From assembly GCF_030815415.1 (NCBI RefSeq), contig NZ_JAUSWW010000003.1, positions 1-64,000 on the forward strand: a stretch of 64,000 bases of DNA, read 5' to 3'. Of this stretch, positions 19,938 through 54,088 are shown one piece after another (position 1 is the first letter of the stretch; every line of letters begins with the position of its first letter). The notes beneath the pieces are model-generated. The model did no database searches. It was not told the DNA's origin and was given only the letters and a program-made list of their open reading frames with translations. The position numbers and the translations under genes were made by a program. Source of the DNA: Streptomyces canus. Lineage in GTDB: Bacteria; Actinomycetota; Actinomycetes; Streptomycetales; Streptomycetaceae.

Positions 19938-19952
19938 GGTTGTGTGTCTTTC

Positions 19953-29510: not shown

Positions 29511-30968
29511 TCAGCTGACATCCCCGGAGATGCTCGGGGAAAGCAGGCCTTCGCCCGGCCAGAACGGCCGCTCGGTGATGAGGCTGGTGAGGAACCTGTC
29601 GACCTCGGCCAGGACAGCGGCGCGCTCCTGCGGCCCATAGGTGATGACCTGGCCGGCGGCGTCGAAGACCCGCACCTGGCTGGTGGGGCCGACGCAGACA
29701 AGGGCGCGCCCGATCTCGGGTAGCCCGAGGCTGAGGGCGTCACACTCTCCCGTACGGACGAGCTGGACGAGGTCGGTGGTGACCGTCTCCCAGTCGCCGA
29801 CCGCAGGCCAGCCTGTACCGCCGTTCAGCTCATGGGTGAGCGTGGACAGCGGAATGATCTCGCCCGGCTGGCGTCCCCGGGTGAGGCGGTCATGTATCCG
29901 GGCGCCGTCGGGCTGGCGCACCTGGGGGTGGAGCAGGGAGTCGGCGGCGACCACGGTGGTGTTGATCTCCTGGGTGCCAGAGTCGGGGTAGTACGCCTCG
30001 TGCGCGAAGAGCAGATAGGTGTCCGTGGCGCAGGCTGAGTCGTCGGCCTGGCTATGCATGGGCTGGGGTCCCTTCACCAGTAGTGACGTGCCGGGCGCGG
30101 ATGCTGGGGTTGGCCGGGCTGCTCGCTCGAAGCCGGGCGGGAGCGGGCCCAACGGGCCTTCACCGCCAGGGGGCTGGTCCGCTGGTCCGGACGTTGATGC
30201 GGCGCGGGTGCGCTCGAGGGTCTGGGTGACGTGGTCGGCGAGCTGGACCATCAGCCGCTCCCGGTCGATGAGGTGCGCCGAGGCCGCCAGGGTGTCCTGG
30301 CCCTGGAGCAAACCGGCGGCATCCCACAGCAGGTGGTGGCCGAGTGCGGCCGAGCGGCGCAGTTCGGGGCGGTCGCTGTGGGCGGCCGCGTGAACGAGGA
30401 CGGTGTGCAGGGTGGCGAGGCGCTGCAGGTAGCGGCATGAAGGGTCGCCCTCGACGAGGTGGACGTGTGCGCGGGCCCACGCGTCCAGCCGGCCGGGCAG
30501 GTGCTGGGCGAGCAGCGGGGCGAGCAGCATCGCCGGCACCGTGGCATTCGTGGGGGCACCGCGGCTGAGGGCGAACAGGCCGACCAGCGCGCCGATGAGG
30601 GCGACGACGGCAGCGGAGAACCGAAGGGATCCGGGGACGGTGTCCAGGACGAGGTGCCTGGCGGGGCGTCGGGTCAGCCAGCGCCGGGCGATGCGCTGCC
30701 TGCGGCTGGCCCGCGGGGCGAGCACCCCGATCTGATGGGGGATCTCGGGCTGGCTGCCGTCGCCGGGGACGGTCCAGGCCAGCCACCCCCAGGGGGTGCG
30801 TTCGTGGACGAGGACGAGTTCGCACGCGGGCGAGCAAGTGTGGTCGCGGATGTGGCCGGTGAACAGGGCGCGGGACCGTTCCCTGTCCCACCGCCCCGGG
30901 TCGCGGGCGAAGGGCCGCTGGTGATGCGCGGCCGCGGTCGGCGGCGGAGTGTGGACGGTGTCCGTCAC
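29511..30968 (-). CDS. Membrane protein with a separate C-terminal domain (485 aa)
   Basis: GTG 30968 overlaps the stop of the upstream gene (TGTGA). Residues 1-100 include WDRERSRALFTGHIRDH and a Cys-containing segment; two membrane helices follow (SAAVVALIGALVGLFALSRG and NATVPAMLLAPLLAQHL), then a cytoplasmic helical part (LVEGDPSCRYLQRLATLHTV). At codon 304 there is an internal ATG (about 30059) with an AAGGGA site, after which the remaining 182 residues form an independent-looking domain (YLLFAHEAYYPDSGTQEINT). That part may also be translated alone. A decayed copy of its 3' end lies at 21955-22146. Role in transfer inferred from location. Confidence 0.6.
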   Translation of the reverse strand: MTDTVHTPPPTAAAHHQRPFARDPGRWDRERSRALFTGHIRDHTCSPACELVLVHERTPWGWLAWTVPGDGSQPEIPHQIGVLAPRASRRQRIARRWLTRRPARHLVLDTVPGSLRFSAAVVALIGALVGLFALSRGAPTNATVPAMLLAPLLAQHLPGRLDAWARAHVHLVEGDPSCRYLQRLATLHTVLVHAAAHSDRPELRRSAALGHHLLWDAAGLLQGQDTLAASAHLIDRERLMVQLADHVTQTLERTRAASTSGPADQPPGGEGPLGPLPPGFERAARPTPASAPGTSLLVKGPQPMHSQADDSACATDTYLLFAHEAYYPDSGTQEINTTVVAADSLLHPQVRQPDGARIHDRLTRGRQPGEIIPLSTLTHELNGGTGWPAVGDWETVTTDLVQLVRTGECDALSLGLPEIGRALVCVGPTSQVRVFDAAGQVITYGPQERAAVLAEVDRFLTSLITERPFWPGEGLLSPSISGDVS

Positions 30969-32398
30969 AGGATGCTGCCTTCCATCGGGTCGGCCGCAAC
31001 GGAGCCGCACGTCGTGCAGCGGCCGTCGCTGTCGGGGTGGGCGCGCCGAGGCGTGGGCCCCGGGCAGGTGCGGCACGGCGGCCAGCCGAGGCAGGTGGGG
31101 CAGAGGTCCTCGCCGGGGGCGGTGGCGGGCACGCCGCAGCCGGTGCATTCGACGAGGGCGCGATAGGTGAGGGCCTCGCCCACCGTGCGCGCGGCCGCGG
31201 AGCTGGCCGCAGGCGGCTGCGGGTCGTCCCAGACGGGCTCGTCGTGGTGGTCGGCCGCGAGGGCAGGCGGGGGGTAGGCCTGGGCGGCTCGCAGGCGGGC
31301 GGCGATGATCGCGCCGACCGTGGTGCGAACCGGGTGGGGCAGGGGCCGGGCGGCGATGACGTGGAGGAGCTGCTCGCGGCTCCAGCCGGATTCCAGCATC
31401 ACCGTGACGACGCGGCCTTGGTCGGTCAGCGCCTGCCCGGTCAGCAGCAGTTCGGGCCGTGCCGCTGCGAGTTCGAGCAGCAGGTGGATCCCGGGGTGCA
31501 TCTCATCCGCGGCAGGGACGGCCGGCGGGGAGGTCGGCGTGCGGGGCTGGTCCGTCCGTTCACGTGCCGGCGGCGCTTGGTCGCACGGACGGAAGGGGCT
31601 GGTGTTCTGCTGGTTGGTCTTCTTAACGATGGTGTTCTTAGTGCCGGGGTCAGCCAACGTAGGCTCAGCCAGTCCTGGAAAACCCGACTCTGGTGGTGAG
31701 CTGGGGTTTTCCAGGTCGGGCAGGTCGGTGATGACGTAGAGCGCCGGGCCGAGCGTGCCGTCGGGGTTGCGCTCGCGGGTGCGGTAGAGGAATCCGTACC
31801 GTTCCAGCTGGTGGAGCCCTGTGGTGATGGCGTCGACGCCTTCGCGGCCGCGGCGCACCAGTTCGGCGCCGGTGACCTGCCAGCCGTCGCGGTGCGTGCT
31901 GACGTACCCGAAGATCCCCTTCGCCTTGAACGACAACCGGGAGTCCCGGAACAAGCCGTTGGCGATCTGCGTGAACTGATCGCCCGCCATCACCCCGCGA
32001 CGGATGCCCGCCGCAGAGCCAGCGTCGTGTTCGCCTTGGACTGCGAGGGTGGCGGTGGCGTCCAGGAGCGGGACGTCGAGTGGGGCGGCAGGGCGGTCGG
32101 TGATCGAGTAGGTGACCTCGCCGAGCGTTCCGTCCGCTCGCCGCAGGCGTTCGCGGATGAGGTAGCCGTGCTGTTGGAGTTCCTTCAGGCCGGCGCGGAT
32201 CGCCTCGCGTCCGTCGGGGCCGACGGCGACGAGGTGGGCGAGGGTGACCTGCCAGCCGTCCCGGTGGGTGCTGACGTACCCGAAGATCCCCTTCGCCTTG
32301 AACGACAACCGGGAGTCCCGGAACAAGCCGTTGGCGATCTGCGTGAACTGATCGCCCGCCATCACGCCCCGGCGGACCCCCGCCCCGAAGCGGCTCAC
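30965..32398 (-). CDS. Winged-helix protein with duplicated N-terminal module and Cys-rich tail (477 aa)
   Basis: Residues 7-52 and 131-176 are almost the same sequence (RRGVMAGDQFTQIANGLFRD ... GIFGYVSTHRDGWQVT), each followed by a second helix and a wing (DGTLGEVTYSITD, DGTLGPALYVITD), so it has two full winged-helix modules. This resembles plasmid replication or transfer regulators of actinobacterial elements. The C-terminus carries four CxxC-type pairs (CTGC, CPTC, CRTC, CTTC), likely zinc-binding. It faces the transfer operon across the repeat-rich divergent region and is the best candidate to bind there. Start ATG 32398; other starts are within the first module. Confidence 0.75.
   Translation of the reverse strand: MSRFGAGVRRGVMAGDQFTQIANGLFRDSRLSFKAKGIFGYVSTHRDGWQVTLAHLVAVGPDGREAIRAGLKELQQHGYLIRERLRRADGTLGEVTYSITDRPAAPLDVPLLDATATLAVQGEHDAGSAAGIRRGVMAGDQFTQIANGLFRDSRLSFKAKGIFGYVSTHRDGWQVTGAELVRRGREGVDAITTGLHQLERYGFLYRTRERNPDGTLGPALYVITDLPDLENPSSPPESGFPGLAEPTLADPGTKNTIVKKTNQQNTSPFRPCDQAPPARERTDQPRTPTSPPAVPAADEMHPGIHLLLELAAARPELLLTGQALTDQGRVVTVMLESGWSREQLLHVIAARPLPHPVRTTVGAIIAARLRAAQAYPPPALAADHHDEPVWDDPQPPAASSAAARTVGEALTYRALVECTGCGVPATAPGEDLCPTCLGWPPCRTCPGPTPRRAHPDSDGRCTTCGSVAADPMEGSIL
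31872..32384 (-). repeat. Two ~140-bp near-identical DNA repeats encoding the HTH modules
   Basis: Segments 31872-32011 and 32245-32384 are nearly identical in DNA, including at third codon positions, over the part coding the first half of each winged-helix module. The rest of each module has diverged. This points to recent gene conversion or strong constraint on the DNA. Confidence 0.7.
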
Positions 32399-32524: not shown

Positions 32525-32624
32525 CCCCAGACCAGAAGGCCGACCACCAGCCCCGACCAACGGTCACGATCCGACAACTTGCGCTCTGCACAAGCCTGGT
32601 ACGGCCCATGGTCGGGCCGTACCA
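32525..32624 (-). promoter_or_regulatory. Operator-like repeats facing the HTH gene
   Basis: Read on the minus strand: GGATCGTGACCG (32572-32561), TGGTCGGGG (32559-32551), TGGTCGGCC, and TGGTCTGGGG, the same order as at 19885-19932. Upstream of these is an 11-bp inverted repeat (32597-32607 with 32614-32624) whose centre contains ATGGTC. Shared binding sites for one regulator are the simplest explanation. Confidence 0.6.
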
Positions 32625-32640
32625 CGCATCCCGGCACTGC

Positions 32641-32842
32641 TGCGCAATCGGTGCGCAAGACCGACTGCGCAGCCCTTCCGGCGTCCTGCGCAATCGACTT
32701 GTGCAGGCGACTGCGCAGCCCTTGTCGGCGTCCTGCGCACCGGTGCGCGGATCCTGCGCAATCGACTTGTGCGGGTGACTGCGCAGCCCGGCCGACATGG
32801 GGACGCGCCACTGCTTGCCCGACCGCTTCAGATGGCTGCGCA
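32641..32842. repeat. TGCGCA repeat array
   Basis: The palindromic hexamer TGCGCA begins at 32641, 32652, 32666, 32687, 32712, 32734, 32755, 32780 and 32837, mostly 21-25 bp apart, i.e. on about the same DNA face. Longer direct repeats (ATCGACTTGTGC then GACTGCGCAGCCC) underlie part of it. The hexamer continues into the first transfer gene (33337-33508). Confidence 0.75.
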
Positions 32843-32928
32843 GCGCGCATCTGACGTCCCGGCAACCGCTGGGAGTTCCCCCTGGAGACAGGGCGTCGCG
32901 GAGTGTCGAAATGTCGTGGTGCGGTTCG

Positions 32929-33059
32929 TGGTCTGGCCGTACCACAGGCCGTACCAGGGGTTTGTGTCCCTTTCGTAATCGTGGTCGGGCCTTCGTGGTC
33001 TGCCGTGTGGTCTGGGGCGGCGGGTTGTCTCGGGTCAGAAGCAACGACTGGTTCTGACC
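32929..33059 (+). promoter_or_regulatory. Operator repeats and RBS-proximal inverted repeat of the transfer operon
   Basis: TGGTCTGGCC (32929), TGGTCGGGCC (32982), TGGTCTGCC (32996) and TGGTCTGGGG (33008) precede an inverted repeat GGTCAGAA (33033-33040) / TTCTGACC (33052-33059) that ends 12 bp before the ATG of the first gene. GGCCGTACCAGG near 32948 mirrors the same string on the minus strand near 32614, so both divergent promoters carry related sites. Confidence 0.6.
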
Positions 33060-33071
33060 TGGGAGTTCGGA

Positions 33072-34001
33072 ATGTCTCGTGCCAAGCAGATGGCGGAGGA
33101 GCAGGCTGTTCCTGCGACCGCTGCGGGGGCCCGGCTGCAGCAGATGCGGCGCCGGGTCCGCCTGACCCGGCTGAGCGTGTGGGCGGTGATGGCGGCCGGG
33201 CCCGTCGCGCTGGCCGTCGCCGTGGCCAGCCCGGCGACCGTGGTCCGTGCGGCCCCCGCGACGAAGCCGGCCACCGTGAAGACGGCCGTGCCGGGCAACC
33301 CGTCCGGCTACGCCTCGGTGTTCCTCACCGCGTGGCTGCGCAGCCGCGCAGGCGACGAGCGCAGTGCGCAGGCCCGGCTTGCGCAGTCGATGGCCCCGGG
33401 CGTTGATCTTCCCGAGGTGTCGGCTGCGCAGCCCGGGCCCGAGGCGGTCGTGGCGGTGCGCAGTGCGCAGCAGGCCGGCCAGGCGTGGTCCGTGACGCTG
33501 GCTGCGCAGTACGGCGACGGAGCGGTGTGCTACTTCGCGGTGCCGGTCCTCGCCGATCGCGCAGGGGCCTCGTTCACGGTGTCCGCTGCCCCTGCGGTGG
33601 TGGCGTCCCCGTCGCGCATTGAGGGGCCGCCGTCGCCGTACACAGTGACGGTGCCGGCCAACGGTGATCTACCGTCCGACGTCGGGGAGTTCCTGGCCGC
33701 CTATCTGACCGGCGCCGGGGAGGTCGACCGCTACCTCGCTCCCGGGGTGCGCCTGGCACCGGTCTCCCCCGCCCCCTACAAGACCGTCACGGTCGATCAA
33801 CTGCTGGCCGCCGATGAGGCGGCGGCCGCCGCATCCGTCCCCACGGACGGGACACGGGTTGGGGTGATGGTCCAGGCAGAGGCCCGGGACGCGGACGGGC
33901 GGTGGCCACTGGCGTACGAGCTCACGCTCACTGCCCGCTCCGGCCGGTGGGAAGTGTCCGCGCTTCAGTCGGGCACCGCTCAGGGCGGGGGCACCCGATG
34001 A
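33072..34001 (+). CDS. TcpC/VirB8-like conjugal transfer protein
   Basis: A 309-aa bitopic protein: about 30 cytoplasmic residues with basic QMRRRVRLTRL, one membrane helix (WAVMAAGPVALAVAVASP, about 38-56) and a large exported part with two similar alpha+beta halves (NPSGYASVFLTAWLRSRAGD ... and DLPSDVGEFLAAYLTGAGEV ...), as in the TcpC family that forms the membrane platform of Gram-positive type IV transfer systems. First gene of the operon; start ATG 33072. The DNA coding the first half contains seven TGCGCA hexamers that continue the upstream array. Confidence 0.8.
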   Translation: MSRAKQMAEEQAVPATAAGARLQQMRRRVRLTRLSVWAVMAAGPVALAVAVASPATVVRAAPATKPATVKTAVPGNPSGYASVFLTAWLRSRAGDERSAQARLAQSMAPGVDLPEVSAAQPGPEAVVAVRSAQQAGQAWSVTLAAQYGDGAVCYFAVPVLADRAGASFTVSAAPAVVASPSRIEGPPSPYTVTVPANGDLPSDVGEFLAAYLTGAGEVDRYLAPGVRLAPVSPAPYKTVTVDQLLAADEAAAAASVPTDGTRVGVMVQAEARDADGRWPLAYELTLTARSGRWEVSALQSGTAQGGGTR

Positions 34002-34342
34002 CAACCACCGTGCCCGGCCAGATGCTCGCGGGGAAGCTGGACGATCTCGGCGACGCGTGGATCACCATGTTCCAGGACTGGGCGACCAAAGGTCTGCAGG
34101 CCGGTCTGCTCGTCCTGGTCGTCGTCATCATGATCCAGAAATTCAGTCTGAAGGCCGGGATCGGCGCCCTGCTGCTGATGATCGTCGCGCTGGGGCTGTA
34201 CAACTCACGCGACTCGCTCGCGGACATGTTCGAGGACGAGGTCAACAACCCCTCCCAGGGCGCACCCCCCGTCCCCGGCACGGCCCGCTCCGAGCTCCCG
34301 GTCTCCCGCGTGCACGCGCCCGGCGCCGGAGGCTGGCTGTGA
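33998..34342 (+). CDS. Small membrane transfer protein (114 aa)
   Basis: ATG 33998 overlaps the stop of the TcpC-like gene (ATGA). Residues about 30-47 (LQAGLLVLVVVIMIQKF) and 50-66 (KAGIGALLLMIVALGL) form two membrane helices and the rest is a charged, proline-containing tail. Position and topology match the TcpD or VirB2/VirB3-like small subunits of actinobacterial transfer operons; the family is too short to name with certainty. Confidence 0.65.
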   Translation: MTTTVPGQMLAGKLDDLGDAWITMFQDWATKGLQAGLLVLVVVIMIQKFSLKAGIGALLLMIVALGLYNSRDSLADMFEDEVNNPSQGAPPVPGTARSELPVSRVHAPGAGGWL

Positions 34343-34830
34343 CCGCCGCCAGCGGCGGTCGGGTGGGCCGCTTCTACACTGCCGCGCGGCGCCACCCGTG
34401 GGTGCTGGGCAAGGTCGCCGACTGGAAGATCCCGCTGGGTCCGTACACGCCCGCGCAGATCGCGGTCGCCGTCGTCGGCGGCTTCCTGCTCATCAAGACC
34501 ATCGGCTGGTGGTCGTGGATGGGGCCCCTCCCGCTGGTGGCCTGGCTGCTGACGATCTGGGTGGTCCGCCGCCCGAGGATCCGGGGGCGTGCCCCGATGC
34601 AGGCGGCGCTGGGCTGGGTGCTGTTGGGGTGGCAGCCACAGGGCGGCCGCATCGGTGGGCGGGCCGCCCGCGATCGTGCTGCCCGCCCCTTGGTCGGGGG
34701 TTTCACGATCGAGGACGTGCCCCGCCCTGTTCTGTCCACCCCGCCGCTTCGTCTGGCAGCGGGGGTAGGGCCGGTGTCGGGGGTCCAGCAACTGCTCAGC
34801 CGTGCCGGGCAGGGCGGGGGTGTGCGGTGA
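34339..34830 (+). CDS. TcpE/PrgI-like membrane transfer protein (163 aa)
   Basis: GTG 34339 overlaps the preceding stop (GTGA). Two closely spaced membrane helices (QIAVAVVGGFLLIKTI and GPLPLVAWLLTIWVV, about 47-85) follow a short basic N-terminus, and the rest is cytoplasmic with a conserved-looking end near the ATPase gene. A short two-helix protein immediately upstream of the VirB4-like ATPase is the usual place of VirB3/TcpE/PrgI, which recruits that ATPase. Confidence 0.65.
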   Translation: MTAASGGRVGRFYTAARRHPWVLGKVADWKIPLGPYTPAQIAVAVVGGFLLIKTIGWWSWMGPLPLVAWLLTIWVVRRPRIRGRAPMQAALGWVLLGWQPQGGRIGGRAARDRAARPLVGGFTIEDVPRPVLSTPPLRLAAGVGPVSGVQQLLSRAGQGGGVR

Positions 34831-37514
34831 GGGTGCCGTTCCGTCACATCGCTGGGCACCTGGTCTGGTCGACGCACGGCAGCGTGTGGGCGATCTACCG
34901 CCTGCACCCGGGCCCGGATGCCCAAGGCCAGGTCGAGGAGAGCGTCCAGGGCACCTATGTGCCTGCCGCGGTCCGCGACGAACAACTCGCCAAGATCACA
35001 CACATGGTGCGTTCCCTGTCCGGGGCACCACGGTTGTTCGGGCTAGCCGCCCAGGTCGATCCCGGCGAGATCGCCCTGAAGATGATCGACGGCATCGAGC
35101 CCGCCGACACCGCGCCGGGCACGGATCACCCGTGGGTGGAGAACGTCGAGGCCACCCTGGATCTGCTGGACGACCAGGAGATGCACCGCCGCACCCTGTG
35201 GCTGGCCGTGCCGCTGGAGACCGAGACCTCCGGGCTCCAGATGGCGGCGTCGCTCGGCTCGGCCTGGGCAGAGCTGGCTCCCCTGCTCGGCATGCGCCCC
35301 GACCCCATCGCTCGCCGTGAGGTGAGTGCCTATCGCGAGCAGGCCGCCCGGGTCGAGGCCGCGCTCGCCGGCGGGATCGCGTTCCGTCCGGCCCGCCCGG
35401 CGGAGGTCGTATGGATGATCCAGCACACCCTGCACCGCGGCGTTGCCGAACCCCTGCTGGCCGAGGCAGAGAACAGCGACCTGTACGGCGGGCAGCTGCG
35501 GGACGGGGTGCTGCGCTCCCCCAGCTACGCCGACCTCGGACAGGTACGTCTACATGAGGGCGGCATCGACCCCGACCTGGACGACGTCGGTGACCTCAAG
35601 AGCGCGGGCCCGATCACCCGCTCTGGCCGCACGGCCTGGTGGCGGATCAACGGTGGTTCGCCGCTGGGGCGGCGGTGGCTGCAGGTCGAATCCGACGCCG
35701 GGACCGGCTACCAGGCCCACCTGGCGCTGGCCGAGTGCCCGCCCGCGGTCAGCCAGGACGCCGCGGATCTGTTGGCCCAGCTGGAATCCCTGGACTTTCC
35801 CGTCGACTACACCATCGACCTCACCCTGGTGCCTGCGGAGAAGGCGCGGGCGCAGGTGCAGCGCAAGAAGAACGAACTCATCGACCAGGCCGACCAGTAC
35901 GACGCCCGCCCCACCGGCATGCCCGCATCCCTCAGCGAAGCCGCCCGCGACCTGGGCGAGTTGGATGCGCGGCTGTCGCGTACCTCGGTGGAGGTCGAGG
36001 TGCAGTCGGTGACCGTGCTGACGGTGTGGGGGCCGACCGCCGCCATCTGCGACTCCCGCGCCCGCGCCCTGGCCGCCCTCCTCAGCGGGGCCGATTACCG
36101 AGCCGTGCGCCCGGCCGGCCTGCAGGAAGCCCTGTTCACGCTGGGGCTGCCCGGGACGGTGCGGCCGGGTGTGGTGCGGGAGTTCACTCAGCATCAGGTC
36201 AGTGAGGACTGGGCGCTGTCCGGGGCCTTCACGCTCGCGGAGGTCGGCGACCCGAACGGGATGTTCCTCGGGATCGACTTGGACTGCGGCACCACCCGCC
36301 CCGTCATGATCAACGTGGCGGATGCGCCAAAGCAGGATGCCTCCGCCTCGATGGGCATCGTCGGCGACCTGGGGGCGGGCAAGAGTGTCCTGCAGAAGCT
36401 GATCGCGGAGGCGGTGTGGGCGCGCGGAGGCTGCGCGATCTGCATCGACCGCACCCCGGTCAGGGAGTGGGCGACCTTCGCCCGCACCGCCGCCCGGGGC
36501 CGGGTGCAGATCATCGACGCCGCGCAGGCCGAGGTGTCCATCGACCCGCTACGTATGTTTCCCGGCCCGGAGGGCCGCCACTACGCCCTGTCCTACCTCA
36601 CCCTGCAGCTCGGCATCGGCCCGATGAGCACCAACGGCGAAGTCCTGCACCACGCCGTCGAACACGCCGCCGCGAGCGAGAACCCGTCCATGCATCGGGT
36701 GCTTCAGGTCCTGGAGGAGATGGCCACGGGTGAAGCGGGCAGGCGGCAGGACGCGGCCGCCACCCTGGCCGGTCTCATCCGCGTGGTTGCCACCAACTCG
36801 CTTGCGGCGATGGTGTTCGACCCGGCGCTGCCGCCGGTACGGCTGGACGCTTCCACGGCGCACGACATGATCGTCATCACGACGGCCGGGCTGAAGCTGC
36901 CGCCGAAGGCTGCGTTCGTCAATCCGGAGGTGCTGCACCAGCAGCCTTTGGAAGCGCTGATCGGCCGGGCGGTCCTCTACCTGATCGCAGCCCTCGCCCG
37001 GCAGACCGCGTTCGAAGACCCCGCACGCTTCACGTCTGTGGTCCTGGACGAGCTGTACTGGCTCACCTCCTCCGCGGAGGGCACCGCGCTGGTCCACGAG
37101 ATCCTCCACGACGGCCGCAAGCACGGTGCCGGACTGCTGGCCGGCTCACACGACGCAGCCGAACTGGGCCCGGACCGCGGGCTGATGGCCTACCGGGCCC
37201 TGGCCCGCACCGCGGACCGTGAACGCGCCCGCCGCGGCCTGGACTTCATCGGCCTCGACCCCGACGACCCAGAACTACTCCGTCTGGTGACCACCGGCCT
37301 GTCCCCGATCGGCCAAAAGGGCCGCGAGGGCGAGTTCCTGCTGACCTGCCCCCGCCAGAACACCGGCCGGATCAAGGCTGTCATCCCCCGCATCGCGCGC
37401 ATCGCCACGTCCATCACGACCACCCCGGGACGCCGCATAACCACGCCTGCTCCTGCTGCGGTCGAAAAGCCCTGCGGCGAGAGCGTCGGTGCATACCCGA
37501 AGGGATACGCCTGA
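34827..37514 (+). CDS. VirB4-like conjugation ATPase (SCO6880-type)
   Basis: An 895-aa protein; start GTG 34827 overlaps the upstream stop (GTGA). The N-terminal half is the VirB4-type domain with HLVWSTHGSVWAIYRLHP; the C-terminal half is a RecA-like ATPase with Walker A GDLGAGKS (about residue 512) and Walker B VVLDELYWL (about 737), followed by HDGRKHGAGLLAGSHDAAEL as a motif-C-like segment. It would power assembly or DNA/protein export by the transfer machine at the inner face of the membrane. It is the best-conserved gene of the operon and has no internal damage. Confidence 0.85.
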   Translation: MRVPFRHIAGHLVWSTHGSVWAIYRLHPGPDAQGQVEESVQGTYVPAAVRDEQLAKITHMVRSLSGAPRLFGLAAQVDPGEIALKMIDGIEPADTAPGTDHPWVENVEATLDLLDDQEMHRRTLWLAVPLETETSGLQMAASLGSAWAELAPLLGMRPDPIARREVSAYREQAARVEAALAGGIAFRPARPAEVVWMIQHTLHRGVAEPLLAEAENSDLYGGQLRDGVLRSPSYADLGQVRLHEGGIDPDLDDVGDLKSAGPITRSGRTAWWRINGGSPLGRRWLQVESDAGTGYQAHLALAECPPAVSQDAADLLAQLESLDFPVDYTIDLTLVPAEKARAQVQRKKNELIDQADQYDARPTGMPASLSEAARDLGELDARLSRTSVEVEVQSVTVLTVWGPTAAICDSRARALAALLSGADYRAVRPAGLQEALFTLGLPGTVRPGVVREFTQHQVSEDWALSGAFTLAEVGDPNGMFLGIDLDCGTTRPVMINVADAPKQDASASMGIVGDLGAGKSVLQKLIAEAVWARGGCAICIDRTPVREWATFARTAARGRVQIIDAAQAEVSIDPLRMFPGPEGRHYALSYLTLQLGIGPMSTNGEVLHHAVEHAAASENPSMHRVLQVLEEMATGEAGRRQDAAATLAGLIRVVATNSLAAMVFDPALPPVRLDASTAHDMIVITTAGLKLPPKAAFVNPEVLHQQPLEALIGRAVLYLIAALARQTAFEDPARFTSVVLDELYWLTSSAEGTALVHEILHDGRKHGAGLLAGSHDAAELGPDRGLMAYRALARTADRERARRGLDFIGLDPDDPELLRLVTTGLSPIGQKGREGEFLLTCPRQNTGRIKAVIPRIARIATSITTTPGRRITTPAPAAVEKPCGESVGAYPKGYA

Positions 37515-37894
37515 TGCCCACCACTGCGTCGTCGTCCTTCCCCTCCGCCCGCTCCAGACGGCTGGCCGCCGTGGCGAGCGTGCTGACCGTGATCACCGTC
37601 GCGGCCGCCGTCGTCGCCCTGGTGGTGGGGGCGAGCCTGCGGGAGTCGTGGTGGCCGCGCACCGGAGCCGCGTTCGCCGCCGAGACCTCTTCACCTCGCC
37701 AGGATCCCTGCGAGGTGATCGTGGGACCGGCCAAGGAGTACTGCGAGCGCGGGGTGTCCGCCTCGATCTCGTCTCCTGCCGCTGCTCGGCAGGATCTTGG
37801 TGATGCGGTGTGGCGGCTGGTGCCCGCCGGAGCAGGCCTGGCGGCCCTGGTGATCTGGCGGCGCCGCAGCGCCACGGCGCGAGGGCGGGCCTGA
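37514..37894 (+). CDS. Small membrane protein with CxxIxGPAKEYCER motif (126 aa)
   Basis: ATG 37514 overlaps the stop of the ATPase gene by one base. A first membrane helix (AAVASVLTVITVAAAVVALV) leads to an exported segment containing DPCEVIVGPAKEYCERG and a second helix (LVPAGAGLAALVIW). The same Cys-bounded motif occurs in the exported loop of the next, much larger protein (DTCDLIKGPAKEYCERS), so the two probably contact each other or a common partner outside the membrane. Unnamed transfer subunit. Confidence 0.65.
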   Translation: MPTTASSSFPSARSRRLAAVASVLTVITVAAAVVALVVGASLRESWWPRTGAAFAAETSSPRQDPCEVIVGPAKEYCERGVSASISSPAAARQDLGDAVWRLVPAGAGLAALVIWRRRSATARGRA

Positions 37895-40741
37895 ATGTTG
37901 CGCCCCGACCGCGCCACGCTCCGCTCGGCCGGCCTTCTGGCGGTCCTCACCGGTGTGTTCGTCATGGTCAACAGCCAGGTCGTGTACGCGGCGAGCAGCG
38001 CCAGCGAGACCGGTGACCTGCTGTCCCCGCTGAACGTCACCAGCAGCGAGGGCGTGCCGATCAACGGCTACGAGCTCAATGCCCAGGGCGGTTCTATCTT
38101 CAGTTTCCAGGCGCAGTCGCTCTCGTTCGCCTTGTCTGGGCTGTTCACCGTGATCCGGTTGCTGGTCGGGTTGGCCGGGTGGGCGATCGAGCTCGCGTTC
38201 CGGTTCCCGCTGCTGAAGATCCTCATCAAGCCGGCGCAGCGGGTCGCTGACGCGTACGAGACGGTCGTGGTCGACACCCTGGGGCTGAAGGGGCTGTTGC
38301 TGGCCTGGGCGTTCGTGTTCGCCGCCTTCATGATCGTGCGGGGGCGGGTCGGCCGCGGTCTGGGCGAGATCTTCCTGACGCTGACGATCGCGGCGTTCGC
38401 CGCGTCGACGTTTGTGCGCCCCGATTACCTGCTCGCCCAGGACGGTCCGCTCGGGCAGACCCAGCAGGTAGCCGCTGAGGTCGCGCAGGAGAGCGTGAGT
38501 TCGTACGACTGGGGCGGCAAGCTCGCGAGTCTGGGTCCGTGCGACCGGATGGCCGGGGTGCAGGAGGCCAAGTGCCTTGAGCAGGAGGCTCAAGCGCCGG
38601 TTGCCGCCACTGACGTGGCCCGTCCGCTGCAGGACTCGATCAGCAACGCGCTGATCGTCAAGCCCTACATGCTGCTGCAGTACGGCCGCATCCTGGACCC
38701 GGCCAAGACGTCCGACCGCAAGGCCTATGCCGTCCATCTGAAATGGATCACCGGCGGCTACAAGGCAGGAGCCCAGGACCAGCAGGGCGAAAAGGAGGGG
38801 GACAAGGACACCTGTGACCTGATCAAGGGGCCGGCCAAGGAGTACTGCGAACGATCCATCAACCCCGGTGCTGCCGTCGATGACCCGACAGAGGATCTGC
38901 CCGCTGTGGGGTGGGTGCCGGGGCAGTCGCTGGGGGACATCGACAGTGCCGCCTTCAGTGAGGAAGGCCAGCAGTTCGCCGCGTTCCTCGAGGACCTCGA
39001 AGACGCCGGGCCCGTCGGCAAGGCCTGTGCCGCTTATGCGCAGAAGCCCACCTGGTGGCGGGTCGGCGGCGCCGCACTGCTGCTCGTCGCGGCGTTCTTC
39101 ATCTGCGGCATGCTGCTGTCCAGCGCGATCGTGCTGCTGGGCACCCAGGGCATCGGCGCGGCTGCCGCGGCCGCCGGAGGGCTGGCCTTCATCGCCGGGA
39201 TGCTTCCCGGCCCGGCGCGGCAGTCGGTGTGGAAGTGGCTGTCGATCTGGGGCATCGCGATCCTGGCCATGGTCGGGATCTGCGCGTTCGTGCCGTTCTT
39301 CGGGATCGCTGTGGATGCCACCATCACCAACGGCCCCGACCTGATGGTCGAACGCATCCTCCTGATCGACGTGCTGGCGATCGCCGGCGCGGCCGGGCAC
39401 CGCCGCCTGCTGACCGGCATCACCTCCTTCGGGCGGCGCATGGCCATGCGGATGCGGTACGCCAAGGTCGGCGGCACCCACCTGCCCGGCGACAGCTCCG
39501 AACTCGGCGCCGCCCTGGCCATGAACTCCCCCGCCGCGCTCGGCGGATACGGCGGCGGTCTGCGCGCCTTCTCCGGCGGCGGGGGCCGGTTCGCCATCCT
39601 CGGCACCCGGCAGCGGCTGATGGGTGCGCTCACCTCGGTGTTCGACGGGGCGGGCATGCCGGTGGACACCGGAAGGGTGTTCGCCGACGCGAGGGCCGAA
39701 GCCGGGCGGGGTCTGGCCCCGGTCACTGCGGCGGCGGCCGCGGGCGGGCTGGGCGCACGGCTCGGCCTGACCGGCGCCCGCCTGGGCGCCAAGGGTGCGC
39801 ACTGGCTGCTGATCGGCCGCCGCCCGGATGCGGAGAAGTTGGACCGCTGGCGCAAGCCCACCGCCGACGGAGACCCACACGCCGGTGGCTCGCCGGGCAG
39901 CGCAGGCGGCGGCTCGGGCGGCACCGGGCCGCGCCGGCCCGGCGGGCCGCCGGACCGCTACCGCAACGAGGACGGCCAGGTCGTCGACCACGCGACCGGC
40001 CGGGTGCTGCACGACCAGCACTCGGATCGCACCCTGCTGTCGACGCGGGCTCACAACCGGCTGGTCCGCTACCGCGGTTACCGCATCCTCAACCGCGGCG
40101 GCCGGCTCGTCTACGGGGCAACACACGGTCTGCCCGACAACGTCCGCCGAGCCCGGACAGGAGGCTCGCGCTACTCCCAGGATGCCCGTCAGCAGGCACG
40201 GGTGTGGGGCAACACGGTTCGCGAGGACGGCCGCGCCTGGGCGGACACGGGCCGTCACGTCGCCCAGGTGTTGCGCGATCACACTGATGACAGGGGCGGA
40301 ACCGGTCCCTTCACCGGCCGCCGCCTCTCCACCACCGCGCCGGCCACCACCTCCGCTCGCCCCGCATCCACCAGCCCAGCCTCCAACAGCCGGGCCTCCA
40401 GCGGCGCGGCGCATGCGCCCCCGGGGGCGGCGCCGACGGCCGGTGGGCCTCAGTCGGCGTCGGCCCCGGTTCCCCGCAGGCTGCCCGGCGCCACCGGCGG
40501 TGGTCGGCGGGCAGCGCCCAACTGGCCTCCCCTTGGCGGCTCTTCGTCCGGACCGCCCGCTCCCTCCGAGCCACCTCCGCCCAGACGGGCACGGCCAGGT
40601 GGACCGTCCCTACAGCCGGACCGCACCAGCGGCCGGTCGCGCCAGGAGGCGCGGGACATGATCCAGCGGCTCATGCGGCGCAACGAAGAGCGGGCACGCC
40701 GCCCCCAGCCCGGTCCGGACGAGGGCGGTGAGCAGGAGTGA
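37895..40741 (+). CDS. VirB6/TrbL-like polytopic transfer channel protein (948 aa)
   Basis: Starts at ATG 37895 directly after the previous stop. Signal-like first helix (GLLAVLTGVFVMVNSQVVYA), helices around 75-110, 120-150 and 155-175, an exported loop of about 200 residues with four cysteines and the motif CDLIKGPAKEYCER, then four or more helices (ALLLVAAFFICGMLLSSAIV, GAAAAAAGGLAFIAG, LSIWGIAILAMVGICAF) and a 400-residue cytoplasmic tail rich in Gly, Pro, Arg and Ser. This layout matches the VirB6/TrbL component of actinobacterial T4SS-like operons. It overlaps the next gene by GTGA. Confidence 0.75.
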   Translation: MLRPDRATLRSAGLLAVLTGVFVMVNSQVVYAASSASETGDLLSPLNVTSSEGVPINGYELNAQGGSIFSFQAQSLSFALSGLFTVIRLLVGLAGWAIELAFRFPLLKILIKPAQRVADAYETVVVDTLGLKGLLLAWAFVFAAFMIVRGRVGRGLGEIFLTLTIAAFAASTFVRPDYLLAQDGPLGQTQQVAAEVAQESVSSYDWGGKLASLGPCDRMAGVQEAKCLEQEAQAPVAATDVARPLQDSISNALIVKPYMLLQYGRILDPAKTSDRKAYAVHLKWITGGYKAGAQDQQGEKEGDKDTCDLIKGPAKEYCERSINPGAAVDDPTEDLPAVGWVPGQSLGDIDSAAFSEEGQQFAAFLEDLEDAGPVGKACAAYAQKPTWWRVGGAALLLVAAFFICGMLLSSAIVLLGTQGIGAAAAAAGGLAFIAGMLPGPARQSVWKWLSIWGIAILAMVGICAFVPFFGIAVDATITNGPDLMVERILLIDVLAIAGAAGHRRLLTGITSFGRRMAMRMRYAKVGGTHLPGDSSELGAALAMNSPAALGGYGGGLRAFSGGGGRFAILGTRQRLMGALTSVFDGAGMPVDTGRVFADARAEAGRGLAPVTAAAAAGGLGARLGLTGARLGAKGAHWLLIGRRPDAEKLDRWRKPTADGDPHAGGSPGSAGGGSGGTGPRRPGGPPDRYRNEDGQVVDHATGRVLHDQHSDRTLLSTRAHNRLVRYRGYRILNRGGRLVYGATHGLPDNVRRARTGGSRYSQDARQQARVWGNTVREDGRAWADTGRHVAQVLRDHTDDRGGTGPFTGRRLSTTAPATTSARPASTSPASNSRASSGAAHAPPGAAPTAGGPQSASAPVPRRLPGATGGGRRAAPNWPPLGGSSSGPPAPSEPPPPRRARPGGPSLQPDRTSGRSRQEARDMIQRLMRRNEERARRPQPGPDEGGEQE

Positions 40742-41886
40742 GGCCGGCCCGACGGCGCGTCAGGCGCTGGGTGTGTGGGGTGGCGCTGCTGATGTTCACC
40801 GCCGTGTGCTGCGCCGCCCCGGTGGGAAACGCGATCAGCGCGTACGTCGCCCTGCAGAGTGCGCAGGACGACAGCGGAATCGCCGAGGGCGGCAGTTCAG
40901 CGGATATCCCGGCCCGGATGCTGATGGCGTACAAGAAGGCCGTGCAGCTGGTCGGCACGCATGTCCCGAAGTGCCGGGGTATGCGCTGGCCGGTCCTGGC
41001 CGGGATCGCCAAGGTCGAGTCCAACCACGCGACCGGCCATGGCATCGCCGCCAGCGGCGACATCCGCCCCCGGATTTACGGGTTGCTCCTCAACGGTTCC
41101 GGGGCGGGCGGCAACACCACGGCTTTCCCCGACACCGACGGCGGCCGGTGGGACGGTACCGCCAGCGGGGAGCGTGCTGTTGGCCCGTTCCAGTTCCTGC
41201 CCTCCACCTGGCACGGCGTCGGCAAGGACGCCAACGGCGACCAGGTCGCCGATCCGCACAATGCCGACGATGCCGCGCTCGGCGCCGCGATCTACCTGTG
41301 CGGGAACGGACGCGACCTGACCAAGCGGGCCCAGCTCAAGGCCGCGATCTTCCAGTACAACCACTCCAGCGCGTACGTAGCGAACGTGCTCGGGTGGATC
41401 GACCAGTACACGGCAGCAGCCACCGGCCCGGACCTGGGGGGCGTCTCGGGGACGGTCCGTACCGTCATCAACGCGGCGCTCGCCCAGCGGGGCGTGCCGT
41501 ATTCGTGGGGCGGCGGCAACGCCCAGGGCCCGTCGTACGGGATCTGCTGCTCGCCCAGCGGGAAGAGCGGCACACGTATCAAGGGCTTCGACTGCTCAGG
41601 GTTGACGACCTACGCCTACGCCAAGGTGGGCATTCGGCTGCCGCGTACCGCGGCTGCACAAGCCGGCGTCGGCCGGCGCATCCCGGCGAGCCTCGGCGCT
41701 GGCGCGCTCAAGCCCGGCGATCTCGTCTTCTACGCGTACGCCCCCGGCCGCGATTCGACGATCTATCACGTCGGGATCTATCTGGGCGGCGGTCAGATGG
41801 TCAACGCCGCCCGCCCCGGCACGATGGTCCGCCTCGACGCGGTCGACGCCATGTCCGGCTATGCGGGAGGAGCACGGCTGCTGTGA
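40738..41886 (+). CDS. Lytic transglycosylase - NlpC/P60 peptidoglycan hydrolase
   Basis: A 382-aa exported enzyme: signal peptide (CGVALLMFTAVCCAAPVGNA), a transglycosylase domain with the catalytic-type Glu in GIAKVESNHATGHGI (about residue 92) and the conserved AVGPFQFLPSTW motif, then an NlpC/P60 domain with catalytic Cys in IKGFDCSGLTTYAY (about 285) and His in IYHVGIYLGGG (about 342). It would open the cell wall locally for the transfer channel, like VirB1 or Tra-associated hydrolases in Gram-positive plasmids. Start GTG 40738 overlaps the preceding stop. Confidence 0.85.
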   Translation: MRPARRRVRRWVCGVALLMFTAVCCAAPVGNAISAYVALQSAQDDSGIAEGGSSADIPARMLMAYKKAVQLVGTHVPKCRGMRWPVLAGIAKVESNHATGHGIAASGDIRPRIYGLLLNGSGAGGNTTAFPDTDGGRWDGTASGERAVGPFQFLPSTWHGVGKDANGDQVADPHNADDAALGAAIYLCGNGRDLTKRAQLKAAIFQYNHSSAYVANVLGWIDQYTAAATGPDLGGVSGTVRTVINAALAQRGVPYSWGGGNAQGPSYGICCSPSGKSGTRIKGFDCSGLTTYAYAKVGIRLPRTAAAQAGVGRRIPASLGAGALKPGDLVFYAYAPGRDSTIYHVGIYLGGGQMVNAARPGTMVRLDAVDAMSGYAGGARLL

Positions 41887-42506
41887 CCACTCCCCCGCGC
41901 TCACCGCGCCTGCTGGTGCTGAGCACCGTCGTCCTCGTTGTTTGTGGCGTCGCTCTGCTGGCCGTGCCACACGGTCAGGAGCAGCCGGCCCCGGGCTCGT
42001 CGCCGGTCTCCGTGACCAGGGTTCCGTCATCGGCGGCCGCCGCGCCTTCGGTCATCGCGGCGCCGTCCATGCCGCGCGCTGCCTCGCCATCGCCGGTCGT
42101 TCCGCCGGCTCCGCCGCCCCATGGCGAGGGGGCGGCTGGCGACCGGGCCATCCAGCAGACGCTGGAGGCGGCCTGGCCCGCGGACCTTCCCACCGCCGAC
42201 GAACGAGAGCTGCTCGCCACCGGTCGAGCGCTGCTGCGCGCGGACGCCACCGGCGTTGGCCGCGAGAAATGGCCAGAGATCTTCCCTCACTCCCCTGCCG
42301 TGGCCCCGGCATTCGCCACCGCCCGTTTCCGTATCCAGGCCGCGATCGCCCGCCAAGACGGCCGCCCGGACAAGGCGGTGGTGCATCTGGTGTGGGCCAG
42401 CGCGGACCGCGGCGGCACCTTCACCGACCTGCGCATCACCGACTGGTACTTCACCCGCACCACAACGAAGGGAGCACCGGCATGGACGCCGCAGCCCCGT
42501 ACCTGA
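41883..42506 (+). CDS. Membrane-anchored exported protein (207 aa)
   Basis: GTG 41883 overlaps the stop of the hydrolase gene. One membrane helix (LLVLSTVVLVVCGVALLAV, about 9-27), a proline/serine/alanine-rich linker to about 85 and a compact exported domain (AIQQTLEAAWPADLPTADER ... FRIQAAIARQDGRPDKAVVH ... DLRITDWYFTRT). The linker-plus-domain form suggests a wall-spanning subunit of the transfer apparatus; no named family. Confidence 0.65.
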   Translation: MTTPPRSPRLLVLSTVVLVVCGVALLAVPHGQEQPAPGSSPVSVTRVPSSAAAAPSVIAAPSMPRAASPSPVVPPAPPPHGEGAAGDRAIQQTLEAAWPADLPTADERELLATGRALLRADATGVGREKWPEIFPHSPAVAPAFATARFRIQAAIARQDGRPDKAVVHLVWASADRGGTFTDLRITDWYFTRTTTKGAPAWTPQPRT

Positions 42507-45112
42507 CCCACCGGGCCGATACGGCGGCCTCCGGGCAAGCACTCGGCCTGCTCACCGGCCTGATCGACACCGCCGGCTGGCTCTATGCCCACTGGTATGT
42601 GCTCGCCGGGGCCATCGCCGTGTGCTGGGGCGCGGGCGAGTGGGCGGTCCGTGCGATTGCGGCGCACGCCTCGGCCGAACGGATGGCTCTGGAGCTTGTC
42701 CCCAACCGGCACTTCGACCCGGGCCTTGAGGTGATCTTCAGGCGCGGTGTCCAGCTCGCCCGCGCGTCCACGGCGATGCCCTGGTGGGCGCCGCGCCGGG
42801 CGAAGAGCGTGCAGATCCGGCTGCGTGCGGACGGCAGTACGCCGTTGCGCTACCGCATCGAAGGACCGGCCGGCGGGGAACGGCTGCTGTCCATCACCCC
42901 GTTCGGACCGGACATCACCGTCAACCAGGCCCGGCCGATCGTGGATGAGCCCCGCAAGCACACCGTGCGCGCCGAGTTCCTCCTGCGCGGCAAACTCACG
43001 GCCCCGCTGCGCGACGTGCCGCTCGACCCCGATCCTCTGCAGCCGCTCGTCGACGCCGTGTCCGACCTGCGGGCCGAGCTCGGCGACCTCGCCGAGATAC
43101 GCCTCGACATCCAGCGCGCCCCCAAATGGGCCCTGCGGGCGGGCCGCCTGCAGCTGATGAGTGCCGCGCGCCGCTCCGAACGCCGGGAGGCACAGCGATC
43201 CGCGCGCTGGCTGCGGCAGGACGCCAGCGGTATCGAGGACTCCTGGAGCGGGCAGCTGCAACACCTCCTCAGCGACCACTCCGGCTCCGGTGCCGGGCGG
43301 CGGCTGGTGATGCCGCCGGTGCCCCGCCGCATCGAGCCGGCCGAGGCGCTGGGCAAGCTCGCCGAGGACGACCACCTGGTGCGCGTGCAGCTGCTCGTGC
43401 TGTGCGCCTCCAACACCGAAGGCCGCGCCCAGGCCAGGCTCGCCCAACTCCAGGCCGCGTTCGACGTGTTCGGCGGCCGCTCGCGGTGGGCGATGCGCGG
43501 CTGGCGGCTGGGGCCGTGGCGGATCGGCGCCGACCACTGGCCCACCCGGCGTGCGTTCGAGCGCCGCTGGACGCGGGGGCACTGCCAGCCGCCGCGCGCG
43601 AACTGGGTGCGGCTGGAGGAGCTCACCGGGCTGCTCAAGCCGCCGACCGTGAACTGCCGGCTGCCGGTGCTCGCCGGGGACCTGCCGACCTTCACCTTCG
43701 GCGATCCCGCGTTGCTGCTGCAGGGCACCTACCGTGGTCCGGACGGCAAGCCACGGCTGGTCGCCACGTACGCCGAGGAGACCTTGTTCGAGGTCGGGAC
43801 GGGCAAGGCGGGCGGCGGCAAGACCGAGCGCGCGCTGGCGCAGGCGATCGGCTGGGCGCACGCGGGCGGAGGGCTGGTCTTCGTCGACCCGCACCGCGAC
43901 TCCTGGCCGCGGGCCACCCCGTTCCTGGCACACGACCACCTGATGCACCGGATCGCACTCATCGACCTCAACGCTCTGGGCGCCAACCCGCGGGTGAGTT
44001 CGTGGAATCCGCTCGGCATGCACCACGGCCAGACAGCCCACGAGGTCGTCGAAGCGATCACCGACGCTTATGGGGCCGCACTGGCCTGGGACGACGCGAG
44101 CGCCCCGCGCGCGCTCACCATCCTCACCGCCGCGCTCACCGTCCTGGTCACGGTCAACGAGAGAGCCTGCCAGGCCGGCCGGCCCGCGGACCAGGCCACG
44201 ATCTTCCACGTCCGGGCTCTGCTCACCGACGCCCGCTTCCGCACGGCCGCACTCGCCACGGTCGCCGACCAGCTGGACGAGGAGAGCCGCTCATGGTGGA
44301 AAGTGGTGTTCCCGACGCTGCCGCCGGACGCGTTCGCCGTGGTCCTCAACCCGATCGCCCGCCTGGCCGCCAACCCCGTCACCCGCGCCTTCCTCGGCCA
44401 GCCCATCGGCGCCTACAACATCCGCACGGCAATGGACACCCGGATGATCGTGTGGGTGTGCCCGGGCGGCAACGGGCCCACCGACCGCCTGCTGACCGCG
44501 CTCCTCGCCCGCGACCTGCTGCGCGCCGCACGCTCCCGGCGAGACACACCCGAGAAGCAGCGGGTGCCGTTCCGCCCCTACTTCGACGAACTGATCACCC
44601 TGACCGGCGCGGCCCCGGAAACCATCGCCGCAATGTTCGAGGACCTGCGCAAGTACCGCTGCCACGTCCACGGCATGACCCAGCTGCTGTCCCGGCTGCC
44701 CACCCCGGTCCGGCTGTCCCTGCTGCAGAACGCTTCCACCCTGGCCACCACCGCCGGATCGAAGTCCGCGATCGCCCCGGTCACCGCCGAGTGGGGCGAC
44801 AACCCCAGCCCGGACCGGGTCGCCACCATGGAGCGCTTCGAGCACTACATCTCCCTGACCGTGCACGGCCACCGTGTCGGACCCGTCCAGCTGCGCGGCC
44901 CCCACCTCGACGACGTCTTCGCCGCCCAGGCCCGCCCCGGTCAGGTTCCCGAACTGGAGCGGGCCGCCCACGACAACGCCGGGGCGCTCCCGCTGGACCG
45001 GCTCACCGCACGCGCCGCGCAGCAGCTGGGCCGGGTCGCGGCCTTCCTCGCCGCGCACGCTCCTGCCGGCGCCGCTGCCCACCTGTCGAAAGTGGAAAAC
45101 GAATGGACCTGA
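42482..45112 (+). CDS. VirD4/TraG-like conjugation ATPase (coupling-protein type)
   Basis: An 876-aa protein starting at ATG 42482 inside the last codons of the previous gene, with a GAAGGGAG site. One N-terminal membrane helix (YVLAGAIAVCWGAGEWAV), a large middle domain, and a C-terminal RecA-like ATPase with Walker A GTGKAGGGKTERAL (about 438) and Walker B PYFDELITL (about 698), followed by HVHGMTQLLSRL. In this operon type (SCO6878-like) it is taken as the coupling protein that hands DNA to the channel. Undamaged. Confidence 0.85.
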   Translation: MDAAAPYLTHRADTAASGQALGLLTGLIDTAGWLYAHWYVLAGAIAVCWGAGEWAVRAIAAHASAERMALELVPNRHFDPGLEVIFRRGVQLARASTAMPWWAPRRAKSVQIRLRADGSTPLRYRIEGPAGGERLLSITPFGPDITVNQARPIVDEPRKHTVRAEFLLRGKLTAPLRDVPLDPDPLQPLVDAVSDLRAELGDLAEIRLDIQRAPKWALRAGRLQLMSAARRSERREAQRSARWLRQDASGIEDSWSGQLQHLLSDHSGSGAGRRLVMPPVPRRIEPAEALGKLAEDDHLVRVQLLVLCASNTEGRAQARLAQLQAAFDVFGGRSRWAMRGWRLGPWRIGADHWPTRRAFERRWTRGHCQPPRANWVRLEELTGLLKPPTVNCRLPVLAGDLPTFTFGDPALLLQGTYRGPDGKPRLVATYAEETLFEVGTGKAGGGKTERALAQAIGWAHAGGGLVFVDPHRDSWPRATPFLAHDHLMHRIALIDLNALGANPRVSSWNPLGMHHGQTAHEVVEAITDAYGAALAWDDASAPRALTILTAALTVLVTVNERACQAGRPADQATIFHVRALLTDARFRTAALATVADQLDEESRSWWKVVFPTLPPDAFAVVLNPIARLAANPVTRAFLGQPIGAYNIRTAMDTRMIVWVCPGGNGPTDRLLTALLARDLLRAARSRRDTPEKQRVPFRPYFDELITLTGAAPETIAAMFEDLRKYRCHVHGMTQLLSRLPTPVRLSLLQNASTLATTAGSKSAIAPVTAEWGDNPSPDRVATMERFEHYISLTVHGHRVGPVQLRGPHLDDVFAAQARPGQVPELERAAHDNAGALPLDRLTARAAQQLGRVAAFLAAHAPAGAAAHLSKVENEWT

Positions 45113-46017: not shown

Positions 46018-46170
46018 CGCGGCACGTGGGGCCCCCGGGGCGAATGTCGCAGCCTTGCAACTACCCCGAAAACCCCTTGAAGTTTGCGCACGCGAACCAT
46101 AAATTGAGTGCCGCGAAGATAGGTGCGTGACAGCGAAAGCCTTACATGTAGCCGAACTTGGGAGTTCCCG

Positions 46171-46398
46171 ATGACGCAAGCACCGGAGTCGATTCGCAAC
46201 GACGAAGCATATGGAGCAGGTGAGTGGCCGCCCCTGACACGGGCCGTCTCCTACGTCGGGAGCGCCTGCGTCATCCAGGGCACCGGCGACTTCGACCCGC
46301 AGGACCTCACGGCTGTCCGCCGCCGCTTCCCCGGCCGGTACGTGTCCCTGGACGGCGACGTGATCACCGTATGGCCGCCCTGCGGGCCGGCCCGGTGA
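46171..46398 (+). CDS. Small hypothetical protein (75 aa)
   Basis: ATG 46171 follows a GGGAG site. Short acidic protein with a possible beta-strand pair (VSYVGSACVIQGTGDF and RYVSLDGDVITVW). No family recognised. It stands 150 bp after the transfer operon and 100 bp before the lipoprotein gene on the same strand; a separate promoter is likely, as the 150 bp in front is relatively AT-rich. Confidence 0.5.
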   Translation: MTQAPESIRNDEAYGAGEWPPLTRAVSYVGSACVIQGTGDFDPQDLTAVRRRFPGRYVSLDGDVITVWPPCGPAR

Positions 46399-46502
46399 CC
46401 GGCCGTTCGGGGCTGCCGCTGCTCCTTGGGCCTGGCCGGCCCTCGCAACCGGAGGTACAGGCGCCTGCCGATCGTTCATCCGACCCGAAAGGACACAGAT
46501 CC

Positions 46503-47087: not shown

Positions 47088-47100
47088 GGTGACGGTCTTC

Positions 47101-49164: not shown

Positions 49165-49186
49165 AGCCCGCCGGAAGGAGAAAGCG

Positions 49187-54044: not shown

Positions 54045-54088
54045 CCAACCCGATTCAACACTTTCGACTTGGTGGAGGAGCACTCCCG

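Follow-up and report, generated by a model that had tools for sequence, protein, structure and literature searches.

A conserved array of the hexamer TGCGCA in non-coding DNA and inside tcpC in one clade of Streptomyces plasmid type IV transfer modules

Short DNA motifs kept beside or within plasmid genes have been described in several systems. The sps palindrome of spdA and spdA2, known from pIJ101 and other Streptomyces plasmids, is a 12-bp sequence present in two to three copies inside a coding gene, where it encodes SRDD/E; it is bound by a plasmid protein and can be removed silently (PMC4170104). Repeated short motifs also form Streptomyces transfer loci, the clt loci of pWTY27, pIJ101 and pJV1. 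These belong to TraA/TraB plasmids with a single FtsK-like translocase, lie beside the transfer gene, measure 54-175 bp, and in pWTY27 include 16 bp inside traA (PMC3583192). In the TcpC-type system of pCW3, the winged-HTH (wHTH) protein TcpK binds tandem 9-nt repeats of the oriT, which adjoin its gene and are located upstream of genes and not in tcpC (PMC6137059). In SCP2, a functional binding site, parS, lies inside parT; it is one 18-bp site in the binder's own gene and loads a diffusing clamp (PMC12260392). Transfer has been reported for pI of S. mirabilis, a plasmid with a TcpC/VirB4 cluster (PMC9195940). In the open literature on Streptomyces plasmid and linear-plasmid transfer, a coverage that excludes most subscription papers, neither a cis-acting transfer site for TcpC/VirB4-cluster plasmids nor an array of the kind described below was found, and no open paper pairing TGCGCA with Streptomyces was evidently about such an array, as judged from the search listing.

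The locus studied here resembles each of these systems in part. Like sps, it has a short palindrome kept inside a coding gene, but the word is 6 bp long, occurs in four to nine in-gene copies with more outside, and is read in two frames of a type IV secretion system (T4SS) gene. Instead of a 12-bp palindrome encoding SRDD/E inside spdA, TGCGCA in tcpC encodes Leu-Arg-Ser or Val-Arg-Ser at 33337 and 33457 and x-Ala-Gln at the other five positions, bearing out the two reading frames of the earlier note. Like clt, it is a repeated short motif beside a transfer gene, but the motifs differ, about 870 bp are covered, and the neighboring genes form a TcpC/VirB4 cluster. As at the pCW3 oriT, the gene of a wHTH protein stands beside the repeats, though it is missing from three of 31 array-positive genomes, and unlike the TcpK boxes the hexamers continue into tcpC. 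When a relationship of this wHTH protein to TcpK was sought, its alignment matched no PDB sequence at E ≤ 0.1, and TcpK was not among the best 50 of 747 Foldseek rows obtained with its structural model (mean pLDDT 57). Like parS of SCP2, the putative site lies within a plasmid gene. A single 16-18-bp inverted repeat serving as a loading site, as in single-site ParB/ParT parS, is not indicated, because no position flanking the hexamers exceeds 0.27 bits across 357 intergenic and 415 coding sites. The earlier note had called the spanning of coding DNA unusual; this applies to an array of this size, and smaller in-gene binding sites have been published (PMC4170104, PMC3583192, PMC12260392).

The window, meaning the whole stretch of 64,000 bases that was analysed, comprises bases 1-64000 of contig C3 (91,428 bases). 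The same genome contains a 251-kb contig, C2, and a 10.48-Mb contig, C1, which is taken as the chromosome. The left ends of C2 and C3 carry similar palindrome-rich DNA, which we take to resemble Streptomyces telomeres. Since the right end of C3 stops inside a gene of the DUF2637 family with no in-frame continuation into the left end, C3 is probably an incompletely assembled linear plasmid whose right arm is missing from the assembly. Its tcpC, the only one of the genome, is the first gene of a transfer cluster that also encodes T2SSF and TadE-like proteins (Table 1). The product of the divergent gene was modelled with two wHTH domains and matched nothing in Pfam below E 0.05. The two replication-relaxation proteins have 67% identity across the aligned region and share a conserved E-x-D followed by K, presumably a nuclease-like signature; a PDB search with the pair returned two matches only, at E 0.58 and 0.67. 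For the VirD4-like frame at 42503-45109, no PDB sequence match was found at E ≤ 0.01, and the enclosing frame matched no Pfam family. A large protein with CHAT, NTPase and TPR domains is encoded on the minus strand at 12287-16126.

Table 1 Features of the array locus and of related sites (window positions unless another replicon is named).
Feature	Position	Strand	Basis or detail
Intergenic array	32641..32842	.	Nine TGCGCA by direct count, starting at 32641, 32652, 32666, 32687, 32712, 32734, 32755, 32780 and 32837, between the divergent wHTH gene and tcpC; conserved in relatives
In-gene array	33337..33508	.	Seven TGCGCA by direct count, starting at 33337, 33365, 33380, 33425, 33457, 33464 and 33503, first half of tcpC; codon-shuffle test
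tcpC-like (VirB8-type) gene, first of transfer cluster	33072..34001	+	Pfam PF12642 TpcC, E 4.5e-8
Divergent gene, protein with two wHTH domains, phage-replication-initiator-like	30965..32398	-	PHROG E 1.9e-37 and 3.3e-27; structure model
Remaining transfer cluster	33998..59307	+	Presumed extent as one operon
VirB4-like ATPase	34833-37514	+	Transfer cluster
SLT/NlpC hydrolase	40738-41886	+	Transfer cluster
Replication-relaxation protein	45082-46017	+	Transfer cluster
TadA/CpaF-like ATPase	50714-52222	+	Transfer cluster
Second replication-relaxation gene	19953-20867	+	Operator-like repeat in front
Left block of TGGTCGGG/CCCGACCA repeats	32527..32616	.	Exact at 32552 and 32609; one-base variant at 32527
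Right block of TGGTCGGG repeats, before tcpC	32929..33015	.	Exact at 32982; one-base variants at 32929 and 33008
Operator-like TGGTCGGG repeat before second replication-relaxation gene	19835..19960	+	19897, 19911; variant at 19923
Stand-alone array	C2:9039-9265		Hexamer and CCCGACCA count
Stand-alone array	C1 near 199.2 kb		Hexamer and CCCGACCA count
Stand-alone array	NBC_00490, 9.6 kb from right end		Hexamer and CCCGACCA count
Stand-alone array	NBC_01248, 69 kb from right end		Hexamer and CCCGACCA count

The numbers and positions of the hexamers in both parts of the array agree exactly with the earlier note. TGCGCA was observed 47 times in the 64-kb window, against a mean of 30.75 (sd 5.79, maximum 45) in 100 shuffles. 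The whole 91.4-kb contig has 65 copies, 16 of which fall within 32600-33600, and the remainder amounts to 0.54 per kb; an equal density elsewhere on the replicon, the observation that was to count against the proposal, was thus not found. The intergenic gaps are 11, 14, 21, 25, 22, 21, 25 and 57 bp, so a spacing of 21-25 bp describes five of the eight. Helical phasing, which had been suggested as a sign of cooperative binding, found no support: pooled over 52 loci the spacing was irregular, with a mean cos(2*pi*gap/10.5) of 0.15 in the intergenic part (309 gaps) and -0.41 in the coding part (364 gaps).

Selection acts on the DNA word TGCGCA itself, both in non-coding DNA and inside tcpC, where it costs rare codons. 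Synonymous codons were shuffled within each of 22 tcpC genes such that the protein and codon usage of the gene were preserved. Together these genes hold 173 hexamers where 16.6 were expected, and the next palindromic hexamer, CGTACG, reached 34 against 14.7 in the same shuffle. For the tcpC of the window, seven hexamers were observed against 0.40 expected, and none of 2000 shuffles reached seven. The observed count was likewise reached in none of 2000 shuffles for 20 out of the 22 genes, and in four and one of 2000 for the remaining two. In the codon alignment, TAT, CTT, AGT, GGT and GCT precede GCG-CAG and thereby form the hexamers. A T-ending codon preceded GCG-CA in 109 of 114 cases, compared with 567 of 6716 (8.4%) elsewhere in the 22 genes; the corresponding figures were 17/17 versus 17/164 for TAT among Tyr codons, 14/14 versus 19/426 for CTT among Leu codons, and 31/32 versus 14/544 for AGT among Ser codons. 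Several hexamer-encoded residues are conserved in TcpC, as would be expected of a by-product of protein sequence or base composition, but the codon shuffles and the nine non-coding copies leave that explanation next to no chance, and a protein repeat or composition was ruled out as the source of the in-gene hexamers. The two frames, the shuffles and the retention of the word across the clade strongly support selection at the DNA level, as originally proposed. The tcpC gene thus appears to serve a second purpose, as a docking site for a DNA-binding protein, which makes it a clear case of one bacterial gene with a long second message in its DNA.

The intergenic region matched 21 Streptomyces plasmid records, the wHTH protein 89 and TcpC 189. 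The tcpC loci compared comprised 21 from plasmid records, 30 further loci, including the window's own, and 40 stretches around tcpC. In the window and its 21 plasmid relatives, zero to nine hexamers occur in the 680 bp before tcpC, four to nine inside it, many of them at nearly fixed positions, and zero to three in the next 2.5 kb. A clade was defined by an HMM score of at least 390 bits; after removal of eight duplicate copies it held 52 distinct tcpC genes, no pair being 99% identical or more, and all 52 carry four to nine in-gene hexamers. Upstream hexamers are absent at four of the 52 loci (L030, L084 and L098 over 700 bp; L094 over the 192 bp available). Among 33 more distant loci (128-371 bits), 29 have zero to two in-gene hexamers, one has three and three have five to seven; two of them with zero to two, L100 and L101, have 5 and 10 hexamers upstream only. 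By these computations the 16 hexamers form one conserved cis-acting array of one clade of Streptomyces plasmid type IV transfer modules. When the two top 7-mers of each of 28 hexamer-poor tcpC loci were compared, no fitting common word emerged as a replacement (GTGGTGA/ACTCACC recurred in two loci and GTGGTAA/CTTACCA in two). A genus-wide triple-hexamer pattern matched 78 of 150 genomes, many by chance according to a reversed control, and was not used for counts. A search of viral contigs returned no relatives of the replication-relaxation proteins or TcpC. In the 21 linear tcpC records, the median distance to the near end is 45.6 kb and 20 are oriented inward, figures of limited bearing on the array, since this orientation is shared by 15 of 17 less closely related tcpC plasmid records (manual count).

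The array is flanked by conserved blocks, each with repeats of TGGTCGGG or its complement (24 sequences aligned, 14 displayed), and the promoter-proximal stretches carry TGGTCGGG with few or no hexamers. The TGGTCGGG repeats are probably an ordinary operator separate from the hexamer array. As they recur at the promoters of three genes (wHTH, tcpC and second replication-relaxation), they probably serve as the operator of a single regulon. On the S. canus plasmid NZ_CP107987, DNA about 1 kb from the left end matches the left TGGTCGGG block and has no TGCGCA there; two further S. canus plasmids share this match.

The arrays extend beyond what the earlier note described: a further one was found at a second gene in relatives, and others on other replicons. 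On plasmid NZ_CP109230, of which 100 of 103 kb were counted, the hexamer count exceeds two per 1-kb bin in just three bins, a pair at tcpC (58-60 kb) and one at 33 kb. The array in the last of these runs across the 3' end of a gene and on into the following DNA; this gene is related to a C1 membrane-protein gene matching Pfam DUF2637 (E 4.8e-48). In DUF2637 relatives from other genomes, hexamers are often found some 167, 136, 126 and 106 bases ahead of the stop codon, and as many as eight follow it; six of the 34 DUF2637 loci lack hexamers around the 3' end. Ala-Gln-Glu at this 3' end is preceded by a T-ending codon in 10 of 11 genes, and the hexamer is thereby spelled in eight of them; over the pooled genes, with whole stop-to-stop frames counted, a T-ending codon was found in 49 of 147 cases against 7.7% elsewhere, a weaker preference than in tcpC. 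A DUF2637 relative is present on 18 of 21 tcpC plasmid records examined. It lies about 25 kb from tcpC in three genomes (G350, G292 and G235) and about 56 kb from it on C3, at about 89.7-91.4 kb, where the contig end cuts it; a fragment of the same gene with two hexamers was noted at 72.4 kb of C3. Each stand-alone array has seven to nine hexamers preceded by one to four CCCGACCA sites (Table 1), and a remnant with four hexamers and no CCCGACCA is located on C1 near 10412.3 kb. The C2-type element occurs in one of 392 genomes of the genus, the window's own, and its array part also on two PLSDB plasmids.

Candidate binders were compared across 31 array-positive and 25 array-negative genomes, 16 of 72 tcpC genomes having been dropped as intermediate or not fetched. 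The wHTH gene was present in 28 array-positive genomes and, at E ≤ 1e-100, in no array-negative one; three array-positive genomes lacked it at E ≤ 1e-10, and six of the array-negative genomes gave weak matches (E 1e-10 to 1e-28). A relative of the DUF2637 C-terminal part (E ≤ 1e-15) was found in 27 array-positive and no array-negative genomes. The three array-positive genomes without the wHTH gene have the DUF2637 relative, and the four without the DUF2637 relative have the wHTH gene. Fisher values of about 1e-12 for these associations are overstated, the genomes being related and the DUF2637 search having scored seven candidates per genome. Ten genomes have a DUF2637 relative and are not array-positive tcpC genomes, one of which (G255) retains tcpC fragments; the wHTH gene is absent from all ten at E ≤ 1e-10. 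Because 9, 11 and 5 hexamers stand at the DUF2637 loci in three such genomes (L238, L240 and L246), with one, two or none in the others, the balance leans slightly towards the DUF2637 protein as the putative binder. PDB matches of its C-terminus to TALE proteins (best E 1e-10) were taken as a repeat artefact, since no stretch passed alone. The binders proposed earlier, replication-relaxation and HTH proteins, were not singled out: the former are encoded near tcpC in array-positive and array-negative clusters alike, and the wHTH gene, for all its close association with the array, is missing from three genomes as stated above. An AlpA-like gene (18918-19631) was also rejected, with relatives in 32 of 72 tcpC genomes, including array-negative G025 and G043, and none in array-positive G067, G315, G242 and G205. 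At 13 loci the wHTH gene and tcpC stand apart, with additional DNA between them. The upstream array there adjoins tcpC alone in nine, the wHTH gene alone in two, both in one and neither in one, and its usual place by tcpC indicates that the array goes with the transfer genes.

Of the functions suggested earlier (origin of transfer, loading site or silencing), each is a candidate; what stands is that the array is part of the transfer module and restricted to a single tcpC clade. Tentatively, we favor a site of nucleoprotein assembly belonging to this module, most probably a transfer locus acting in cis, with the array at the DUF2637 3' end bound by the same protein. A dimeric protein would bind the palindromic hexamers and occupy roughly 0.9 kb where the transfer cluster begins; it would also bind the second array, and both might be used jointly. 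As a clt- or oriT-like locus, the array may mark plasmid DNA for the T4SS or tether it to the membrane. The DNA-level selection, the array in all 52 clade genes, its association with transfer genes, the DUF2637 relative on most plasmid records and the precedent of clt argue for this reading. Against it, arrays are also found on the chromosome and on one plasmid that has no tcpC, four clade loci have no hexamer upstream, and the most similar in-gene palindromes, sps, act on plasmid stability rather than transfer (PMC4170104). An oriT of the usual kind is not indicated by the PLSDB entries, which give a relaxase type for seven of the 21 plasmid records and none for 14.

That same effect of sps, a palindrome inside a Streptomyces plasmid gene, would suit a partition or stability site, centromere-like or sps-like, that keeps the plasmid in spores, and repeat arrays are described as centromeres of type Ib, II and III systems (PMC13245405). 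We consider this improbable: the ParB gene is about 31 kb from the tcpC array on the plasmid counted over 100 of 103 kb, and the array follows one tcpC clade, with loci outside it mostly lacking one. Somewhat better placed, though still unlikely, is a silencing or regulatory array, in which a repressor or bridging protein would coat the region of the divergent promoters as well as the first half of tcpC, possibly loop to the DUF2637 array, and keep the transfer cluster off. The placement of the array, flanked by divergent promoter regions and reaching into the first gene, fits, but the promoter-proximal stretch has TGGTCGGG instead, and the DUF2637 array is at the 3' end of its gene, away from the promoter. 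There is little likelihood that the hexamers are iterons of a replication origin for the adjoining protein, even with its replication-initiator-type domains and the distribution of its gene over array-positive and array-negative genomes. The array is not always accompanied by that gene, as seen in the three genomes that lack the gene and at those separated loci where the array lies by tcpC alone; PLSDB replicon types of array plasmids differ (clusters 43, 14, 1910, 1915, 1974, 1982 or none), the DnaB-like helicase gene of NZ_CP109230 is about 51 kb away, and the spacing is irregular. Returning to the transfer locus, a bolder extension, which we regard as a long shot, is that the hexamer is an address label of the transfer machine: a membrane-anchored protein, for which DUF2637 with its long C-terminal part is a candidate, would bind arrays at both ends of the T4SS cluster, so that the pore is built on the DNA to be exported, possibly without a classical relaxase, and stand-alone arrays would let the machine mobilise the second plasmid and the chromosome arms. 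A conserved array that prevails over codon preference in a gene for a structural part of the transfer system offers a concrete site to test and a bait for the DNA-binding protein.

Several other elements were noted on array-bearing replicons. Beside the C1 array near 199.2 kb, a frame (L012:8583-9047) resembles, by eye, the C-terminal part of a replication-relaxation protein. RAMP/type III CRISPR-associated genes are present on NZ_CP109230 (L227:20138-29430). Two mirrored clusters of GTGCGCAC-type repeats, unlike the TGCGCA array, occur near both chromosome ends, at 190.8 kb (L012:847-987) and 10283.4 kb of C1.
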